NCBI RefSeq assembly: GCF_001414055.1
Contig: NZ_CP013002.1
Location: 390,501 to 454,500 of the forward strand
Direction of reading: 5' to 3'
Source: Caulobacter henricii
Lineage (GTDB): Bacteria; Pseudomonadota; Alphaproteobacteria; Caulobacterales; Caulobacteraceae
DNA length: 64,000 nucleotides
Under the pieces are notes generated by a model. That model was given only the letters and a program-made list of their open reading frames with translations. It searched no databases and was not told where the DNA came from. Shown here one piece after another: positions 47,937-62,172 of the stretch. Within the stretch, counting starts at the first letter, position 1. Every line of letters begins with the position of its first letter. A program made the position numbers and the translations under genes.

Positions 47937-48220
47937 TGGCCGCTCTCGCGCTGCCTGAAACGCTCGATCTGAAGGCCGCCGGCCCGCTGAAGTCCGCGTT
48001 CATGGCGCATCGGGGCGAAGCCCTCGAGGTCCACGCTGACCAGGTCCGCCGCCTCGGCGGTCTCTGTCTCCAGATTCTGCTCGCGGCCCGCAAGGCCTGG
48101 GCTGAGGACGGCAAACCCTTCTCGATTACGGGGCCTTCGGAGGCCTTTGTAGAAACCACCCGTCTTTTCGGCGCCGATGGGGCGCTCCTTTCGGCGGAAA
48201 TCCATGGAGTCCAATCGTGA
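47936..48220 (+). CDS. cheX: STAS-domain chemotaxis protein CheX (Caulobacter nomenclature)
   Basis: 94 residues. A STAS/MlaB-like single domain: LPETLDLKAAGPLKSAFMAHRGEALEVHADQVRRLGGLCLQILLAARKAW follows the pattern of a strand, helix and VDxSxVxxLxxxxLQLLLAA. Caulobacter calls the equivalent gene cheX; it is not the CheC/CheX phosphatase family. Translation is coupled on both sides (TGATG with mcp, GTGA with cheY). Function is unproven. Confidence 0.8.
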   Translation: MAALALPETLDLKAAGPLKSAFMAHRGEALEVHADQVRRLGGLCLQILLAARKAWAEDGKPFSITGPSEAFVETTRLFGADGALLSAEIHGVQS

Positions 48221-48582
48221 CGCGCACGATTCTCACGGTCGACGATTCTCGCACGATGAGGGACATGCTGCGCATGGCCCTGGTCGGCGCGGGCTTTAAT
48301 GTTGTCGAGGCCGTCGATGGCGAGCATGGGCTGGAGGTACTTTCCGCCCACCGCCCCGACGTCATCATCACCGACATCAACATGCCCAAGCTGGACGGCT
48401 TTGGTTTCATCGAGGCGGTTCGCGTCGATGACGACTATCGCGGCATCCCGATCCTGGTGCTGACTACGGAAAGCGATCCGACCAAGAAGCAGCGGGCTCG
48501 TGAAGCCGGCGCGACGGGCTGGATCGTCAAGCCGTTCAATCCTGAGAAGCTGGTCGAGGCCATCCGCCGCGTCGCGGCCTGA
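48217..48582 (+). CDS. cheY: CheY response regulator (first, CheYI)
   Basis: 121 residues, GTG start overlapping the cheX stop. A complete single receiver domain: acidic pair D9-D10, phospho-Asp D53 in ITDINMP, T83 region VLTTES and K105 in VKPFNP. Its position directly before cheA matches C. crescentus cheYI. It would accept phosphate from CheA; which of the three CheYs acts at the motor cannot be told from sequence. Confidence 0.9.
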   Translation: MTRTILTVDDSRTMRDMLRMALVGAGFNVVEAVDGEHGLEVLSAHRPDVIITDINMPKLDGFGFIEAVRVDDDYRGIPILVLTTESDPTKKQRAREAGATGWIVKPFNPEKLVEAIRRVAA

Positions 48583-53298: not shown

Positions 53299-53688
53299 AT
53301 GCCCCAAGCAAGCTCCATTTCCGTTCTCGTCGTCGATGACCAGCTGACCATGCGGGCCCTGATCCGCAATGCGCTTCAGCAAATCGGGTTCAAGGACATC
53401 CGTGAGGCACCCGATGGTGAGGAGGCTCTGAAGAACCTCCTGGCCAAGCCGGCAAACCTGGTCATTTCAGATTTCAACATGCCCAAGATGGACGGGTTGG
53501 CATTGCTCCGCGCCGTTCGCTCGCACCCCCCCATTCGGCAGACAGCCTTTGTCATGCTGACGGGCCGGGCCGACCGTGAACTGGTGCAGAGGGCCGTGCA
53601 GTTCGGCGTCAACAACTACTGCGTGAAGCCGTTCACCGTTCAGGGCCTCAAGGAGAAGATCGAACAGGTCTTCGGGCAGCTCACATGA
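53299..53688 (+). CDS. cheY: CheY response regulator (second, CheYII)
   Basis: 129 residues, start 4 bp after cheB. Acidic pair D13-D14, phospho-Asp D58 in [13 protein letters not shown]88 in MLTGRA and K110 in [22 protein letters not shown] resembles the motor-binding CheY type. The stop overlaps the cheD ATG (ATGA). Two further CheY-like genes are in the same operon. Confidence 0.92.
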
Positions 53689-54248
53689 CGTTTGCACCAT
53701 CTGATGATCTGGAACGGGCCATCAAGGTCCACGTGACGCAAGGCGAAAGCCACGTGTCATCAGACCCCAATGTGGTGATGACCACGGTGCTCGGATCCTG
53801 CATCGCCGCCTGTATCCGCGATCCGCAAGCGGGCATTGGCGGCATGAACCACTTCCTGCTGCCTGACGCTGGCGACGGTCGCAAGGATGGCGACGCCGTG
53901 CGCTATGGTGCCTATGCCATGGAGCTGTTGATCAATGGTCTCCTGAAGCGCGGTGCCCGGCGCGAGCGGATGGAAGCCAAGATCTTCGGTGGCGGAAAGC
54001 TGTTTGACGGCCTTTCGGACGTCGGGGCCAGCAATGCCGCCTTCGCCGAACGCTTCCTGCGCGACGAAGGCATACCGATCGTGTCTTCGAGCACGGGGGG
54101 TGTCTCGGCCCGTCGCGTGGAGTTCTGGCCGGCCTCGGGCCGTGTTCGGCAGCGTCTGGTGGCGGTCGACAACGCGCCGCAGGACGTCCGGCGCCCCGCT
54201 CCGGCACCCATGCCGGCCTCGTCTGGCGGCGATCTGGAGCTGTTCTGA
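53685..54248 (+). CDS. cheD: Chemoreceptor glutamine deamidase CheD
   Basis: 187 residues. Catalytic Cys in [14 protein letters not shown], His in GGMNHFLLP and a Ser/Thr in VEAKIFGGG... region ([13 protein letters not shown]). Deamidates receptor Gln to Glu. Beyond the family core (about 165) it carries a 20-residue Pro/Ala linker that ends GGDLELF, an acidic-aromatic terminus similar to those of the receptors and CheU. Overlaps cheY by 4 bp. Confidence 0.92.
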
Positions 54249-54253
54249 CCCGT

Positions 54254-54640
54254 ATGACCCCAAAGCCGCATCTGACATCCATGATCGACCCATCGGAGTC
54301 TCTGACACCGGTGGGCGAGCTCTCGCGCCGCCTTGCGGCCGAGCTGATGTCGGCGGCGGCGGTCTGTCGCGACTGCGAGCACATCGCCGGCGACCTGGCC
54401 AAGGGCGGCGCAGCCCTGGAAAGCATCTCCAGGCTTCAGGCCCTGGACGAGCTGACCCAGCGACTACATGGCCTTTCGGATGTGCTGCAGCGTATTGGCC
54501 AGCATGCCTCCGGCGAATGGAGCATATCGATCGAACCCCTTCTCGAAGGTCTGGGCCTGGCGGATCTGGTGGTGCGTCTTCGCGCTGTCGACGAGCCGGC
54601 GGCCCAGGGCGTCGAGGCGGGCGAGCTCGACTTCTTCTAG
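54254..54640 (+). CDS. cheU: CheU, Caulobacter-type chemotaxis accessory protein
   Basis: 128 residues (a second ATG at 54281 is possible; neither has a clear ribosome site, so re-initiation after cheD is likely). Mostly helical (LSRRLAAELMSAAAVCRDCEHIAGDLAKGGAALESISRLQALDELTQRLHGLSDVLQRI), ending EAGELDFF. No domain known to me beyond the Caulobacterales family. Assignment rests on position between cheD and cheYIII. Function unproven. Confidence 0.75.
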   Translation: MTPKPHLTSMIDPSESLTPVGELSRRLAAELMSAAAVCRDCEHIAGDLAKGGAALESISRLQALDELTQRLHGLSDVLQRIGQHASGEWSISIEPLLEGLGLADLVVRLRAVDEPAAQGVEAGELDFF

Positions 54641-54649
54641 GAGCCGTCC

Positions 54650-55249
54650 ATGGACGTTCTCCAGCCTTCGACCCGGATCAATCTGGAGCGCGCCACGGTT
54701 CTCGTGCTCGATGACAACGGGCCGTCGCTCGATATCCTTTCCCAGGTCGTGTCCGGGTTCGGCGTCAAGCAGCTGTTTCGGGCGGAGTCGGTCAAGGAAG
54801 CCCAGACCCTTGTCGGCACCAAGACCTTTGATCTGATCATCAGCGACGTCCAGATGCCGGACGTTGACGGGATCGAGTTCATCAACTGGCTTCGTCGAGA
54901 GGCCCAGGAAACCAATCGCTATGTCCCGGTCATCCTGGTGACGGGCCACACCCGCACCACGGACATCCTCCGCACCCGCGATGCCGGCGCAAATTTCACG
55001 GTGGCCAAGCCGATCACGCCGAAGGTCCTGCTGGAGCGGATCTTCTGGGTGGCGCGAGAAGAGCGGGCCTTTATCGAGTGCGAGACCTTCGTCGGGCCCG
55101 ACCGACGGTTCAAGTATGAAGGGCCGCCCATCGGGATGGATGGCCGGCGACGCGACGACCTGCCTGCCGAGGTCGGTGACGCCCAGGAAGCCAACATGTC
55201 CCAAGACGAAATCAATAGTCTGATGAAGGTCGCGAAGGTGCAGATATGA
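54650..55249 (+). CDS. CheY-like regulator with Arg-rich and FliM-like C-terminal tail (CheYIII/CleA type)
   Basis: 199 residues; AGGAG 7 nt upstream overlaps the cheU stop. Receiver domain 12-140: D21-D22, phospho-Asp D66 in ISDVQMPD, T98 in VTGHTR and K120 in AKPITP. The tail has GPDRRFKYEGPP...DGRRRDD (149-170), the kind of Arg-rich segment that binds c-di-GMP in Cle proteins of C. crescentus. It ends with MSQDEINSLM (183-192), closely resembling the N-terminal CheY-binding peptide of FliM (LSQxEIDALL). The stop overlaps cheE. The gene corresponds to cheYIII in C. crescentus. Confidence 0.85.
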   Translation: MDVLQPSTRINLERATVLVLDDNGPSLDILSQVVSGFGVKQLFRAESVKEAQTLVGTKTFDLIISDVQMPDVDGIEFINWLRREAQETNRYVPVILVTGHTRTTDILRTRDAGANFTVAKPITPKVLLERIFWVAREERAFIECETFVGPDRRFKYEGPPIGMDGRRRDDLPAEVGDAQEANMSQDEINSLMKVAKVQI

Positions 55250-55704
55250 CCGTCGCTCGCAAGTTTCACCCTACCAATCGTCTCGCCAAGCTGATCAAGA
55301 CCAAGGGCGGAATGTTGGTCAGGGACGCGATCATCGCCGCCGAGGAGGGGGTCGAAGGGCTGCGCGAGGCCTCGCTCGTCGTCCTGGACGAAACCCTGGC
55401 GGAAATCGAACTCCGTTTCGGCGCGTCGGCCAGCAACCGGCAGGCCGAACGCTTCGAGGACCTCTACAGGCTGACCATGCGCCTGATTGACGTCAGCACT
55501 TTCGTGTCCGACGCCGGCGTGGATCAGGCTGCGGTGTCGCTCGCCGGCGTTGCTGACCATTGCGCCGAAGTCGGTGCCTGGCGCTGGAACGCCATCGACG
55601 TGCATCTGGACGCCCTGCGGCTGCTGCGTTCGGTCGGTGCCGAACTGCCGGCCGCCGACCGTCAGGCCATGATCGACGGTCTCTATAGGGTCAGCCACCG
55701 CTAG
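55246..55704 (+). CDS. cheE: CheE, Caulobacter-type chemotaxis accessory protein
   Basis: 152 residues, ATG overlapping the previous stop. N-terminus VARKFHPTNRLAKLIKTKGGMLVRDAIIAAEEGVEGLREASLVVLDETLAEIELRFG, then a helical C-terminal half. No recognised domain. Last gene of the operon; an imperfect hairpin (CGTCCCGATCGC...GCGAGCGGGACG) follows the stop. CheE is named from its place in the C. crescentus operon; its function is unknown to me. Confidence 0.78.
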   Translation: MTVARKFHPTNRLAKLIKTKGGMLVRDAIIAAEEGVEGLREASLVVLDETLAEIELRFGASASNRQAERFEDLYRLTMRLIDVSTFVSDAGVDQAAVSLAGVADHCAEVGAWRWNAIDVHLDALRLLRSVGAELPAADRQAMIDGLYRVSHR

Positions 55705-55906
55705 GGTCCTGACCGTCCCGATCGCGGCTGCCTAGCGATCAGAAACGACGCGAGCGGGACGATCTTTCAGCCTCCTGTACCTCGCCGCGCGCAGCAGGCT
55801 GGGCTGCGGGTTCTGCAACGATGTGTCGCAAAAGCCACGCAAACGACATCTCCAGCCCATCGCGACAATCTCGTCTTGTCGCCAGAACAACGGTTTGTTA
55901 CCCCTT

Positions 55907-55962
55907 TGCCACCGGTGTCAGCCCCAGGGACATTTGTGCGTCCAAGTCTGACACCGGTGTCA
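55907..55962. promoter_or_regulatory. Two LacI-type operators 42 bp apart upstream of the TonB receptor
   Basis: Perfect 14-bp palindrome TGACACCGGTGTCA at 55949-55962, and a copy with one mismatch, TGCCACCGGTGTCA, at 55907-55920. The centres are 42 bp apart, four helical turns. The CG-centred palindrome is typical of LacI-family sugar repressors. The rest of 55705-56064 has no other clear feature. Confidence 0.65.
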
Positions 55963-56064
55963 AAAACACAGACGGCCAAGAACGGACCGCGCGGGAAGGA
56001 AGCGCGATCCAATTCGAAGCCGGGCGGCGTTCAGCGCCGTTTCCGTCGAACGGGAGGAGGATAC

Positions 56065-59000
56065 ATGTCTAAGAATTCTGCGGGGCGCCTCGACGTCCTG
56101 AAGCTTGGCGTCTCGATGGGTGCCCTGGCCATGGCCATGACCCTGGCCGGCACCGCTACAGCCCAGACGGCACCGGCCCAGGCAGACGATGCCGCGGTTG
56201 AGGAGATCGTCGTCACCGGCTTCCGTGCCAGCCTTGCCAATGCGCTCGACACGAAGCGCCGCGAAAACGACATGGTCGACGTCATCAAGGCGACCGATAT
56301 CGCCGACTTCCCCGACCTGAACCTGGCAGAATCCCTGCAGCGCATCCCCGGTGTCTCGATCGACCGTGACGGCGGCGAAGGCCGCACCATCACGGTGCGG
56401 GGTCTGAACGCCGACTTCACCGTCGTGCGCCTCAACGGCCTGGAAGCCCTGGCCACCACGGGCGGCAAGGACGGCTCCGGCGGCGCCAACCGCAGCCGTC
56501 AGTTCGACTTCAGCATCTTCGCCTCGGAACTGTTCAACAGCGTCACCGTCCGCAAGTCGACCTCGGCGGCCAATGAAGAAGGCTCGCTGGGCGCGATCAT
56601 CGATCTGCAAGCGGCCCGTCCGTTCGACTTCAACAAGTTCACGATGAGCGCAGGGGCCAAGTACGGCTGGAACGACCTGTCGCGAAACAGTGACCCGCGC
56701 TACACCTTCCTGATCAGCAACACTTGGAACGACGGCAAGTTCGGTGCCCTGCTGTCGGTGGCCTATGCCAAGCGCAGTACGCTTGAAGAAGGCTCCTCGA
56801 CCGGCCGCTGGGAAAACCCCAGTGTCCGCTTCAATTCCTCGACCGCCTTCCCCTGCACGGGCACGGCCTATAACCCGGTCAGTGGCCCGGCCCTGACCTG
56901 CGGCCAGATCGGCACCGTTACGGGCGGTACCAATCCGACCGTGACAGCGGCCACCGGTACCGCCAACAACCTCTGGCACCCGCGGATTCCGCGCTACGGC
57001 CGGCTCGAGTACAATCAGAAGCGTCTGGGCGTGACCGGTTCGCTGCAATGGCGTCCGACCGACAACTCGACCCTGACCCTGGATACCCTGTTCGCGGACT
57101 TCACCAACGACCGCGACGAGACCTATCTGGAAATCATCTCGTTCAGCCGCAGTGGCCAGGGCCTGCCCCAAACCGACGTCGTCAACTTCACGGCGGACGC
57201 CAAGGGTCACCTGATCAAGGGCACGTTCGATGACGTCGATGCCCGCGTGGAGTATCGCCACGACGACCTGAACACCGAGTTCTTCCAGAACGTCCTGACC
57301 TACGACACCAAGATCGGTGACAAGGGCAAGCTGGTCGTGACCTATGGTCAGGCCCGTTCGATCCAGAACAACCCGGTCCAGACCACCTTCTCGTTCGAAC
57401 GCTATAACAGCGACGGCTACAGCTACGACTATTCGAACGACCCGCGTCTGCCGTCGTTCAACTATGGCTTCGATCCGACCAACCCGGCCAACTACCAGTA
57501 CAGCAACAGCTCGGCTCTCGGTGATCCGTCGCTGCTGCGCATGCGTCCCAGCAAGGCGGTCAACACCTTCAAGACCTTCCGGTTTGACTTCGACTATCAG
57601 GTCGCCGACTGGCTCAAGGTTCGTACTGGTGCGACGTTCAAGGAATACGGCTTCAACTCCTGGGAAAAGCGCAACTTCTCGCGCGTGATCCCGGGCGGCA
57701 CCGGCTTCGTCGCTGAAGCGGCATTCCCGCTGCCGGCCGGCGTTACGGTGGCTGACGTTTCACGCCTGATCACCGGCTTCGGTCGCGGCCTCGACATGCC
57801 GGCCGGCACGCCGACGTCCTGGATTGCGCCGGACCTCGACAAGCTGAAGACCGTTCTTGGCTATGACTGCAACTGCATCAACAATAACGGCGACTTCCGC
57901 CTCAGCACGCTGAACCAACTGGGCGCGCTGCGGGAAATCGCCGAGAAGGACACGTCCTACTACCTGCAGGGCGACTTCGACCGCGACATCGGCTCTATCC
58001 CGGTCCGCGGCAATATCGGCGTGCGCTGGGTCAAGACCGAGCAGAACGCCCTGGGTCACTACAACACCGGCAGCACCACGGTGGCCACCGTGACGCCGGT
58101 CGGTACGCTCTCGCAAACGGTTCCGACCGATGCGTTCCAGACCACGTCGCGCAGCTACACCAACACCCTGCCGTCGATGAACCTTTCGGCCCAGCCGATG
58201 GAGAACTTCTTCGTGCGCTTCGCGGCCGCCAAGGTCATGACGCGTCCGCAGTTGCAGAACCTGACCCCGGGTTTCACGGCCAACAGCCAGTCGGCCCAGA
58301 CCCTGACCCGTGGCAACCCGAACCTGAACCCGATGTTGGCCAACAACCTCGACCTCGGCTTCGAGTGGTATCCGGATCGGGAAACCCTGTTCTCGCTGGG
58401 CCTGTTCCAGAAGGACATCAAGTCCTTCATCCAGACCACGGCGGTCGCGGTTCCCTATTCGGAAACCGGTCTTCCCAACAATCTGCTGACCAACGGCAAT
58501 ACGCCGGACACCCTGTTCACGGTGACCTCGCAGCAGAATACCAAGGGCGGCAAGCTGAAGGGTTACGAGATCAGCCTGCAGCGTCCGTTCACCTTCCTGC
58601 CGGCACCGTTTGACGGCTTTGGCGGCATCGTGAACTACACGCGCGTCAAGAGTGACATCGAGTACGTGATCTCCAACCCGACCTTCGGCGGCACTCCCCG
58701 GGTGCAGCTGACCCCGGCGGTGATGGTCACCCAGCCCCTGCTGAACCTGTCGCCGGAAGCCTATAACGGCACGCTCTATTACGAGAAGGCGGGCTTCAAG
58801 GCACGCGTCTCGGCTTCCTACCGTGACCCGTACCTGATCCAGGTTGCCCCTTCGGCGACCAACAACAACGACGTTCGGATCAAGCAGAAGACCCTGAACG
58901 TCGACACCCAGGTCAGCTACGAGTTCAAGAACTTCACCATCACCCTGGAAGGTATCAACCTGACCGACCAGTTTGACAGCAAGGTGGACGACTCGGTCCG

Positions 59001-59067
59001 TCAGATCTCGGAAGAGTATGTGCACTTCGGCCGCCAGTACTATCTGGGCGTGAAGTACAAGTTCTAG
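56065..59067 (+). CDS. TonB-dependent receptor of the sugar-uptake type
   Basis: 1000 residues; GGAGGAGG directly before the ATG at 56065. The frame is open upstream through the operators, which I reject. Signal peptide LKLGVSMGALAMAMTLAGTATAQ, TonB box EEIVVTGFR, then the plug with SLANALDTKRRENDMVDVIKATDIADFPDLNLAESLQRIPGVSIDRDGGEGRTITVRGLN, the form of receptors that import carbohydrates in Caulobacter and Xanthomonas. Barrel ends YLGVKYKF. A strong terminator follows. It is the partner of the receptor at 62359. Confidence 0.92.
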   Translation: MSKNSAGRLDVLKLGVSMGALAMAMTLAGTATAQTAPAQADDAAVEEIVVTGFRASLANALDTKRRENDMVDVIKATDIADFPDLNLAESLQRIPGVSIDRDGGEGRTITVRGLNADFTVVRLNGLEALATTGGKDGSGGANRSRQFDFSIFASELFNSVTVRKSTSAANEEGSLGAIIDLQAARPFDFNKFTMSAGAKYGWNDLSRNSDPRYTFLISNTWNDGKFGALLSVAYAKRSTLEEGSSTGRWENPSVRFNSSTAFPCTGTAYNPVSGPALTCGQIGTVTGGTNPTVTAATGTANNLWHPRIPRYGRLEYNQKRLGVTGSLQWRPTDNSTLTLDTLFADFTNDRDETYLEIISFSRSGQGLPQTDVVNFTADAKGHLIKGTFDDVDARVEYRHDDLNTEFFQNVLTYDTKIGDKGKLVVTYGQARSIQNNPVQTTFSFERYNSDGYSYDYSNDPRLPSFNYGFDPTNPANYQYSNSSALGDPSLLRMRPSKAVNTFKTFRFDFDYQVADWLKVRTGATFKEYGFNSWEKRNFSRVIPGGTGFVAEAAFPLPAGVTVADVSRLITGFGRGLDMPAGTPTSWIAPDLDKLKTVLGYDCNCINNNGDFRLSTLNQLGALREIAEKDTSYYLQGDFDRDIGSIPVRGNIGVRWVKTEQNALGHYNTGSTTVATVTPVGTLSQTVPTDAFQTTSRSYTNTLPSMNLSAQPMENFFVRFAAAKVMTRPQLQNLTPGFTANSQSAQTLTRGNPNLNPMLANNLDLGFEWYPDRETLFSLGLFQKDIKSFIQTTAVAVPYSETGLPNNLLTNGNTPDTLFTVTSQQNTKGGKLKGYEISLQRPFTFLPAPFDGFGGIVNYTRVKSDIEYVISNPTFGGTPRVQLTPAVMVTQPLLNLSPEAYNGTLYYEKAGFKARVSASYRDPYLIQVAPSATNNNDVRIKQKTLNVDTQVSYEFKNFTITLEGINLTDQFDSKVDDSVRQISEEYVHFGRQYYLGVKYKF

Positions 59068-59092
59068 TCCTCAGCCCAGGCTGGAGACGGGA

Positions 59093-59120
59093 GGGCGTCG
59101 GCGAAAGCCGGCGCCCTTTT
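59093..59120 (+). terminator. Rho-independent terminator of the TonB receptor gene
   Basis: 10-bp stem GGGCGTCGGC/GCCGGCGCCC (one T-G pair) with a GAAA tetraloop, followed by TTTTCGTTTCGG, 25 bp after the stop. It also separates the convergent nagA gene. Confidence 0.8.
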
Positions 59121-59131
59121 CGTTTCGGCGG

Positions 59132-60268
59132 TCAGGCGACGAGGCCGTCGATCCAGGTGGCCTGGACCTGCAGGGCGTCATCCAGCAGAACGAGGTCGGC
59201 GGCCTGGCCGACGGCAATGCGGCCGCGCTGGGCCGACAGGCCCAGGAAGGCTGCCGGAGCGGTCGCGGCCATGGTCACGGCGTCCCCGAGCGACAGGCCG
59301 AGCATGGCCATGGCGTTGCGCACCGCGCCGGCCATGTCGAGGTCGGATCCGGCCAAGGTGCCATGCGCATCGACGCAGACGCCGTCGACAACATGGATTT
59401 GGCGGCCCTGCAGGTCGAAGCTCTTGTCGATCATGCCCACGGTCGGCATGGCATCCGTGACCAGCATGAAGCGGTCCAGCGGCCGGGTGCGCAGGGCGAT
59501 GCGCAGCACCGCAGGATCCACGTGGCGACCGTCAACAATCAGGCCGCACCAGGCTGTCTGGCTCTCCAGCGCTGCGCCGACCACGCCAGGTTCCCGACTG
59601 GTCAGGGGCGACATGGCATTGAAAAGGTGGGTAAAGCCGGTCAGGCCGGCCGCCAGGGCCCTGCGCATGGTGCCATAGGCCGCGTTGGTATGGCCTGCAG
59701 CAACGATGACCCCGGCATCTGTCAGCTGACGGACCATGTCCGGCGTCGTGGTTTCCGGTGCCAGGGTCACCAGGGTCTTGCCCGCCTTCAGCGAGCCCAG
59801 AAGAGCCAGGGCGGCATCATCGATGACCCGGAACTTGCCGGCATCGTGGATACCCTTGCGCTTGGCGTTGAGGAACGGGCCCTCGATATGGATTCCCAGC
59901 ACCCCCGGCACGCCGGCCGCGATGGCGGCTTCGGTCGCGCGCATGGCCTGGTCCACGACGGAAAGGTCGTCACTGATCAGGGTGGGCAGGAAACCCGTGG
60001 TGCCGAAGGGACGGTGAGCGGCCCCGATTGCGGCAATGGTCTCCGCCGTCGGGGCGTCATTGAACAGCACACCGCCGCCGCCATTCACCTGGGTGTCGAT
60101 GAAGCCGGGGACCAGCCATCCACCCCGCAGGTCGTGGACTGACGCATCGGCGGGCAACTCGGCGGCATCGACCAGAGCGGCGATCCTGCCGTTCTCGATC
60201 AACAGGCCCTTGCCGTCGACGACGCCGTCGTCCGTCAGGATGCGGCCATTTACCAGGACTGCCAGCAT
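59132..60268 (-). CDS. nagA: N-acetylglucosamine-6-phosphate deacetylase
   Basis: 378 residues. Amidohydrolase fold: LVPGFIDTQVNGGGG, HIEGPFLN (Glu metal ligand), GHTNAAYG and FTHLFNAM (His ligands), and LVTDAM with the catalytic Asp. Converts GlcNAc-6-P to glucosamine-6-P and acetate, the first cytosolic step after phosphorylation. ATG overlaps the stop of the SIS gene (TGATG). Length is normal. Confidence 0.93.
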   Translation of the reverse strand: MLAVLVNGRILTDDGVVDGKGLLIENGRIAALVDAAELPADASVHDLRGGWLVPGFIDTQVNGGGGVLFNDAPTAETIAAIGAAHRPFGTTGFLPTLISDDLSVVDQAMRATEAAIAAGVPGVLGIHIEGPFLNAKRKGIHDAGKFRVIDDAALALLGSLKAGKTLVTLAPETTTPDMVRQLTDAGVIVAAGHTNAAYGTMRRALAAGLTGFTHLFNAMSPLTSREPGVVGAALESQTAWCGLIVDGRHVDPAVLRIALRTRPLDRFMLVTDAMPTVGMIDKSFDLQGRQIHVVDGVCVDAHGTLAGSDLDMAGAVRNAMAMLGLSLGDAVTMAATAPAAFLGLSAQRGRIAVGQAADLVLLDDALQVQATWIDGLVA

Positions 60269-61344
60269 CAGACGGTTTCTGTCACCTTGTTGAGATGGGG
60301 CGGGCTGTCGGGGTCATAGCCGCGAGCCACCGATAGAGCATTGGCCATGCGATAGAAGCTCTGGATCATCAAGATCGGTTCGATCACCGGATGAGCGGCG
60401 ATGGCCGGCAGCAGGCTGCCGCTGTCTCCGGCCCCAACCAGCAGCACATCGGCCTCACGGGCCGCCAGGCTGGCCGCCATGGCGTCGACGCTGCCCCGGC
60501 TCTCATCATTCTGGGCGAAGACCAGAACCGGGAAGCCGGACTTCACAAGCGCCATGGGGCCATGCAGCACCTCGGCGGCACTGAAGGCCTCGGCATGCAG
60601 CCCGCAGGTCTCCTTGAACTTCAGGGCCGCTTCCTGGGCAATGCCGAAGCCGACCCCGCGGCCCAGCACATAGAGATTGCGCGCCGGCGTCAGGCGCTCG
60701 ACGGCGGCGGACCAGTCCAGTGCCCAGGCCCCGGCGAGGCCGGCGGGCAGGGCAGCGAGCCCTTCTGCGATATCGGTGTCGCCGGTCCAGGCCGCCACCA
60801 GCTGGGTGATGGCCGACAGGGCGGCGATGTAGGACTTGGTGGCCGCCACGCTCAGCTCGGGCCCGGCATGCAGGGGCAGGACCGCATCGACGATCTCGGC
60901 CAGGGGTGAGGCGGTGTCATTGACCAGGGCGATCGTGAAAGCACCGGCAGCCTTGGCCGCCCGGACCGAAGCCAGAAGGTCGGGACTCTTTCCCGATTGT
61001 GAGATGGCCAGATAGAGCACCCCGTCCATGTTCTGGGCGGCCGCATAGACCGAGCTGACCGAAAGGCCTGCCGACGAGGTCAGGACGCCGGTCCGGGTCT
61101 CGATCAGATATTTGGCGAAGGTGGCGGCGTGGTCCGAGCTGCCCCGGGCACAGGTCACCACGGCGCGGGGCGGATTGGCGCGCAGACGTTCTGCGATCGC
61201 CGCGACCCTGGAGGCATTGGCGGCCAGTTGGGCGGCGACGACCTGCGAAGCCTGGCCAGCCTCCTGGAACATGCGGGTCGACTCTGGCGTCAGTTGCGCC
61301 GGGGTCACGGGGGCCTGCGGTCGGGTCAAGGTCGTGGCCTCCAA
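60268..61344 (-). CDS. nagB-II: SIS-domain sugar isomerase/deaminase (NagB-II type)
   Basis: 358 residues with two SIS domains and no glutaminase domain, so it looks like the isomerase half of GlmS. Signatures: VVTCARGSSDHAATFAKYLIE, ISQSGKSPDLLASVRAAKAAGA, ELSVAATKSYIAALSAI, LGRGVGFGIAQEAALKFKETCGLHAEAFSAAEVLHGP. In Caulobacter and Shewanella GlcNAc loci this protein deaminates glucosamine-6-P to fructose-6-P in place of NagB. Coupled to nagA. Confidence 0.9.
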   Translation of the reverse strand: MEATTLTRPQAPVTPAQLTPESTRMFQEAGQASQVVAAQLAANASRVAAIAERLRANPPRAVVTCARGSSDHAATFAKYLIETRTGVLTSSAGLSVSSVYAAAQNMDGVLYLAISQSGKSPDLLASVRAAKAAGAFTIALVNDTASPLAEIVDAVLPLHAGPELSVAATKSYIAALSAITQLVAAWTGDTDIAEGLAALPAGLAGAWALDWSAAVERLTPARNLYVLGRGVGFGIAQEAALKFKETCGLHAEAFSAAEVLHGPMALVKSGFPVLVFAQNDESRGSVDAMAASLAAREADVLLVGAGDSGSLLPAIAAHPVIEPILMIQSFYRMANALSVARGYDPDSPPHLNKVTETV

Positions 61345-61357
61345 GATGGGTCTTCCT

Positions 61358-62101
61358 TCAGGACAGGGCGTTCAGTTCAGCGACGAAGTCATAGGCGTCG
61401 CCGCGATAGTAGGATTGGGTGACTTCCACCGCCCGGCCGTCCTTCAGGAAACCCCGCCGTTCGATCAGCAGGCCGGCGTCCTTGACGGGCACGCCCAGCA
61501 GGTCGGCATGTTCTGCGTTGAACAGCACGGCGCGCAGGCGCTGCAGGGCGCGAACGGGGCGGTGGCCGGTGTTCTCGAGGGCCTCATAGAGCGAGGTCCC
61601 GACCGTTTCGGTGGAGGGCAGGGCGAAGGCGGCGACCGTCGTGTATTCCACCGCCATCGGCGCGCCATCGGCGTAGCGAATGCGGTTGAAGCGGTAGACC
61701 GGCGTGCCAGGCGACAGGCCCAGGGTCAGGGATTCCTCGGGCGTGACCGACCCTTCGCTCTTGCTGATCCATTCGCTGCGCGGCACGCGGCCGCGCGAAA
61801 TCATGTCCTCGGTGAAGGACGACAGCTTGGAGAAGCTCTTTTCCACCCGGGCGGCGACAAAGGTGCCGGCCCCCTGGCGGCGGGTCAGAAGGCCCTCGCT
61901 GACCAGGCCATCCAGTGCCTTGCGCACTGTGATGCGCGAGATGCTGAACTCCTCGGCCATGTCCCGCTCTGCGGGCAGGGCGTCATCCGGGGCCAGGATC
62001 TTTTTGTGAATCGCATCCCGCAGGGCGCGCTGCAGCTGCTTGTAGAGCGGCGCGTGCTCGGCACCACCGGCATCGAGTCGGCCGATCCGTTCCGAAAACA
62101 T
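61358..62101 (-). CDS. GntR-family regulator, HutC subfamily (NagQ-like)
   Basis: 247 residues from ATG at 62101; a TTG two codons earlier (62107) fits the GGGAGG ribosome site better, with a spacing of 5-6 nt. N-terminal winged helix PLYKQLQRALRDAIHKKILAPDDALPAERDMAEEFSISRITVRKALDGLVSEGLLTRRQGAGTFV, then a UTRA effector domain with SEWISKSEG and VYRFNRIRYADGAPMAVEYTTVA. It is the likely regulator of the nag genes, responding to an amino-sugar phosphate. Starts the nagQ-nagB-II-nagA operon. Confidence 0.9.
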   Translation of the reverse strand: MFSERIGRLDAGGAEHAPLYKQLQRALRDAIHKKILAPDDALPAERDMAEEFSISRITVRKALDGLVSEGLLTRRQGAGTFVAARVEKSFSKLSSFTEDMISRGRVPRSEWISKSEGSVTPEESLTLGLSPGTPVYRFNRIRYADGAPMAVEYTTVAAFALPSTETVGTSLYEALENTGHRPVRALQRLRAVLFNAEHADLLGVPVKDAGLLIERRGFLKDGRAVEVTQSYYRGDAYDFVAELNALS

Positions 62102-62172
62102 TGTCAAATCAGCCTCCCTGAGCAAATCGCTGCCGTTGCCTGGCGATGTCGATAGCATATGACCATTTTCAT

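Follow-up and report, generated by a model that had tools for sequence, protein, structure and literature searches.

The stretch of Caulobacter henricii DNA analysed here (the window, 64,000 nucleotides) contains the Caulobacter che1 operon, in which the cleA gene (cheYIII; 54650-55249 on the plus strand, as are all parts of the gene given below) encodes a CheY-like protein of 199 residues that ends in a conserved peptide resembling the N-terminal CheY-binding peptide of the motor switch protein FliM. As read from its open reading frame (ORF), the protein combines a receiver (Rec) domain (Pfam Response_reg, E-value 9.3e-22), an Arg-rich region and the FliM-like tail, and, as a sequence-only reading of the window had proposed, it corresponds to CleA (CC0440) of C. 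crescentus, its orthologue in the same operon place. We interpret it as a CheY that is gated by cyclic diguanosine monophosphate (c-di-GMP) and equipped with a docking peptide of the FliM-N/CheZ-C type, which would bind another CheY in trans, chiefly the phosphorylated CheYII (CheYII~P) of the same operon; from the sequences compared, we give this interpretation a probability of about 0.4. CleA, its c-di-GMP site and its docking on FliM are already known (Nesper 2017, PMC5677366); the conserved FliM-like tail is apparently undescribed. The 2017 account presents the C-terminal regions of Cle proteins as variable and suggests that they may sequester partners, with no FliM-like motif in it (PMC5677366), and the open-access literature yielded no account of a comparable tail on Cle proteins, in agreement with what the sequence-only reading had supposed.

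The motif MSQDEINSLM occupies residues 183-192 (55196-55225), seven residues before the C-terminus, and stands in the ORF translation exactly as first read. With the preceding Asn it makes up the putative docking peptide NMSQDEINSLM (residues 182-192, 55193-55225), assigned from its motif, conservation, selection and predicted helix, within a tail that runs to residue 199 (NMSQDEINSLMKVAKVQI); AlphaFold2 places the helix at residues 185-191 with low confidence (predicted local distance difference test score, pLDDT, ~62). FliM of the same genome has the sequence ERILNQDEIDSLLGFDL (longer stretch, ERILNQDEIDSLLGFDLSG), and its core LNQDEIDSLL compares with MSQDEINSLM of CleA; the FliM core QDEIDSLLGF is nearly invariant across 30 Caulobacteraceae genomes. 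The CleA tail shares with the FliM CheY-binding peptide (EIDALL motif; 1F4V, 4IGA) the core Q-D-E-I-[DN]-S-L-[LM] and, as far as the low-confidence prediction goes, the amphipathic helix, but the peptide is N-terminal on a motor switch protein in one case and C-terminal on a CheY-like protein in the other. In this last respect CleA resembles CheZ, whose CheY-docking peptide is also C-terminal, although CheZ is a phosphatase and CleA has no CheZ domain: Response_reg was the sole domain in a Pfam search of CleA, and neither the FliM core domain (PF02154) nor the CheZ domain (PF04344) was matched. We count as a FliM-N/CheZ-C docking peptide a core Q-x-x-[IV]-[DN]-x-[LMF]-[LMF] near the terminus of a chemotaxis protein, and CleA carries one.

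As judged from motif scans and profile scores, this likeness exceeds chance. Scans with degenerate DNA patterns covered the 3.96 Mb genome, where the strict pattern, Q[DE]x[IV][DN]x followed by two hydrophobic residues, matched three times: in the CleA tail, in FliM and in one antisense non-gene. A broader pattern gave 14 matches, against four for the reversed pattern. Just three of the 14 are at most 10 residues away from a stop codon; they belong to CleA, to a Cle paralogue (SQTELDQLV) and to a CheZ-like protein (TQSQIDALFG), all of them chemotaxis proteins. Tails were then scored with a position-specific scoring matrix (PSSM) made from FliM sequences only, with a threshold of 8 bits and p values from shuffled sequences. 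The CleA tail of the window reaches 18.1 bits, a score equalled by about one shuffle in 1,000, which upholds the resemblance to FliM that the sequence-only reading had seen; in the background set, made up of ORFs that lack an Arg-rich region, 7 of 1,891 C-termini score as high as 8 bits. When a profile of 32 Cle tails was compared with 177,635 PDB sequences, the FliM peptide of 4iga ranked first, with an E-value of 0.39 that is not significant by itself; the tail profile alone finds this peptide, the lone 26-residue tail giving no significant or relevant match in the PDB. A chance likeness without function would fit that missing match, the shortness of the motif and its decay in C. crescentus-type genomes, but conservation, which already disfavours it, selection and the fixed register across Caulobacteraceae make it highly improbable. 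The CheZ-like protein (L265:1489-2082, minus strand; own genome ~2678892-2679152) is encoded beside a CheY gene, ends in ...DVTQSQIDALFG and matches Pfam CheZ with an E-value of 5e-6 and 27.5 bits, under the curated cut-off; its end is the sole C-terminal FliM-like peptide found outside the Cle family in this genome.

Among non-redundant Caulobacteraceae Cle proteins, 46 of 56 have a tail scoring at least 8 bits, nearly all with a shuffle p ≤0.01; its distance from the end is 7 residues in almost every case. The tail is kept from orthologues of 92% identity to homologues at ~41-55%, in many genera, and the family consensus, PNMSQDEIDxLxKPxKV, is nearer to FliM than the copy in the window. The sequence-only reading had named a missing tail in close orthologues as a refutation; this was looked for, and apart from one clear loss, in a single subclade, the tail persists throughout the family. 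In that subclade no neighbouring ORF bears the motif, and a relocation to an adjacent gene was rejected. Among 14 Caulobacter orthologues, the ratio of nonsynonymous to synonymous polymorphism (pN/pS) is lowest in the Arg-rich region (0.19), followed by the tail core (0.27) and Rec (0.345), and it rises to 0.49 in the variable linker (residues 171-181, 55160-55192) and to 0.58 in the closing heptapeptide, KVAKVQI (55226-55246; KPxKVxL in the family alignment). These values indicate that the tail core is under purifying selection.

A class-wide search covered 89 Cle-type proteins, mostly from other alphaproteobacterial families, and 14 of them have the tail, at a distance of 1 to 11 residues from the protein end; LSQDEIDALF, MSQDQIDSLM and LSQDEVNALL are examples. 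When the tail columns were left out of the alignment, the tree placed the tailed Caulobacteraceae proteins in one well-supported group (48 of 54 tailed, few losses). The whole tree needs at least 13 changes, four of which are forced by well-supported branches, so the tail was gained or lost several times. CleA is the sole tailed protein among the five Cle proteins of the two C. crescentus-type genomes examined; the stretch RIDALMGF in the long C-terminal region of a CleD-like protein in such genomes (L289/L290), similar by eye to IDSLLGF of FliM, was rejected at 0.3 bits against the FliM profile.

The Rec domain of CleA (residues 13-138, 54686-55063; Pfam match at residues 17-131) has an AlphaFold2 model that compares with CheY at Z ~22; structure re-ranking against known folds covered this domain alone, with the tail outside the comparison. 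Helix α4 contains Arg110 (54977-54979), nearly invariant in the homologue alignment. The Arg-rich segment of the c-di-GMP type noticed before the tail is indeed present (residues 139-170, 55064-55159; FVGPDRRFKYEGPPIGMDGRRRD), with the lowest pN/pS and with G149, P150, R152, R153 and R166 invariant in an alignment of 48 sequences. Its core, GPDRR ... GRRRDD, covers residues 149-171, upstream of the tail motif; the first copy of its repeat, FVGPDRR, is exact and the second, YEGPPIGMDGRRR, is degenerate, likewise in CleA orthologues. C. crescentus CleA has the same operon place, a Rec domain and an Arg-rich region, and given the one-residue shift and the alignments, its D67, R111, RR153 and R167 would correspond to D66, R110, R152-R153 and R166 here. 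In that species CleA is a CheY-like effector of the Cle family that binds c-di-GMP (Nesper 2017, PMC5677366), the α4 Arg (R111) is implicated in c-di-GMP activation, and the c-di-GMP site is required for reaching the flagellated pole (PMC5677366). CleA docks on the FliM N-terminus through its CheY-binding motif, with a c-di-GMP-dependent action at FliM, and loss of cleA leads to CheYII-dependent hyper-reversal, i.e. CleA antagonises CheYII (PMC5677366). An isolated C. crescentus CleA peptide binds c-di-GMP when it comprises the Arg-rich and C-terminal regions, whereas the Arg-rich region alone does not (PMC5677366), as would be expected if the tail were a structural part of the c-di-GMP module and its resemblance to FliM accidental. 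Yet the tail core, with its acidic and hydrophobic character, does not resemble a nucleotide site, and the tail-less subclade retains the Arg-rich region; with the rarity of the motif in its own genome, its FliM-profile scores and its recurrence in other families, we regard this explanation as improbable.

The tail probably binds a CheY-type protein, be it its own receiver or that of a partner. FliM and CheZ share one face of CheY, α4-β5-α5 (PMC3774744, PMC9126983), and docking on this face is predicted for the CleA tail because it is a peptide of the FliM/CheZ type at the position of that of CheZ, as is the end of the CheZ-like protein of the same genome. The last 18 residues of CleA would form a short amphipathic helix, Q-x-x-I-[DN]-x-L-[LM], docking on the α4-β5-α5 face of a CheY-family receiver, most likely in trans and chiefly that of CheYII~P. 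Binding of c-di-GMP to the Arg-rich region would lead the CleA receiver face to engage the FliM N-terminus, the FliM-docked CleA would then offer its tail as a decoy for CheYII~P, and CheYII~P, removed or held near the motor, would cause fewer reversals. Three elements of this scheme are inferred: the binding of the tail to a receiver, the identity of that receiver as CheYII, and the gating by c-di-GMP. The likely partner CheYII (53299-53688, plus strand), a canonical CheY, retains Tyr, Val and Lys at the residues numbered 106, 108 and 119 in E. coli, which we take to be the canonical FliM-binding residues of CheY, whereas CleA has Thr at 106 and Arg at 119. CheYI (48217-48582, plus strand), the second operon CheY and a possible partner, has Trp at position 106. 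The close match to the FliM core, the first rank of 4iga in the PDB, the purifying selection and the same class of C-terminal peptide on the CheZ-like protein all count for capture of CheYII~P, as does the presence of the tail, in C. crescentus-type genomes, on CleA, the very Cle protein whose loss gave CheYII-dependent hyper-reversal.

Several observations nevertheless weigh against this capture. Nesper attributes the antagonism of CheYII to competition for FliM alone (PMC5677366), an explanation that needs no tail. In one Caulobacter subclade (L017, L045, L047) the tail of CleA has been lost, with the operon and the Arg-rich region retained, and genomes of the C. crescentus type, the setting in which the antagonism was measured, have a degenerate motif: LSDDEISNMM scores 11.4 bits, a weaker FliM match than that of the window, and its FliM likeness is undescribed there. 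Last, the AlphaFold2 model of the family relative with the strongest motif has a tail helix at pLDDT 76 after a disordered linker at 41, which hints at packing in cis; a helix is predicted in CleA of the window too. The tail might then cover the α4-β5-α5 face of CleA itself and block FliM binding in the absence of c-di-GMP, to be withdrawn when c-di-GMP binds at the Arg-rich region and Arg110. Such auto-inhibition is possible, if somewhat doubtful in our estimation. About 45 residues lie between helix α5 and the tail, the need for the C-terminal region in c-di-GMP binding by C. crescentus CleA would suit it, and since the CleA receiver binds the FliM peptide (PMC5677366), it could in principle bind its own copy. 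However, CleD (CC3100), a CheY-like c-di-GMP effector with a Rec domain and an Arg-rich region like CleA, has a long C-terminal region without a FliM-scoring tail, and its FliM binding is c-di-GMP-gated all the same, so gating needs no tail; more generally, Cle proteins without a tail are also c-di-GMP effectors (PMC5677366), and the tail is therefore not required for gating as such. Most other Cle proteins in the class also do without the tail, the subclade that lost it has kept its Rec face nearly unaltered, and CleA has Thr at position 106. Both proposals of the sequence-only reading, auto-inhibition in cis and capture of CheYI or CheYII in trans, under c-di-GMP control, fit all of these data and the published antagonism between CleA and CheYII; we favour capture in trans over fold-back in cis, and CleA may also alternate between two states, one for each mode.

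The partner might also lie elsewhere. Three alphaproteobacterial genomes without detectable FliM (L150, L151, L256; 97-98% complete, although drafts may miss genes) have Cle-type proteins with FliM-like tails, so that the partner need not belong to the flagellar system, and the end of the tail, KPxKVxL, is conserved in pattern. The tail could thus recruit a protein other than CheYI and CheYII, or other Cle proteins, for instance to form Cle-Cle chains or to offer its hydrophobic end to a clearance protease. We consider this unlikely, as the conserved core is a CheY-docking motif and the end is under the weakest constraint; CheYs, moreover, may persist in the genomes without FliM.

The operon of the window reads mcp, cheX (STAS), cheYI, cheA, cheW, cheR, cheB, cheYII, cheD, cheU, cheYIII/cleA and cheE. 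The order cheB-cheD-cheU-cleA-cheE is syntenic among Caulobacter relatives, and cheE (55246-55704, plus strand; ORF list and synteny) overlaps cleA by ATGA. Neither Pfam nor NCBIfam has a model matching the tail, CheU or CheE. CheU (54254-54640) contains DELTQ, consistent with the DxxxQ pattern of CheZ-type phosphatases, and may be a CheZ/CheT-like phosphatase. It ends in GELDFF, and CheD (53685-54248) ends in a similar style, GGDLELF, perhaps a common C-terminal docking motif. Downstream of cheE, at 55876-62158, genes named by eye (a TonB-dependent receptor, a nagA-like deacetylase, a glucosamine deaminase-like gene with a SIS domain and a GntR-type regulator) apparently form an ordinary N-acetylglucosamine locus.

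Caulobacter has about a dozen CheYs, and a working FliM mimic on CleA would give the antagonism between CleA and CheYII a second route, CheY trapping or self-inhibition, beside competition for FliM. If this is true, c-di-GMP and the CheY~P of chemotaxis would be physically connected, and the C-terminal regions of Cle proteins, variable as they are throughout the class, would gain a layer of docking peptides. We tentatively suggest, with less confidence than for CleA itself, that Alphaproteobacteria repeatedly equip c-di-GMP-binding CheYs with a FliM/CheZ docking peptide as a second-messenger-gated CheY trap: c-di-GMP would both dock the protein on the motor and expose a decoy for the chemotaxis CheY~P, and CheY-CheY contacts would tie chemotaxis to surface signalling, in some lineages without FliM.
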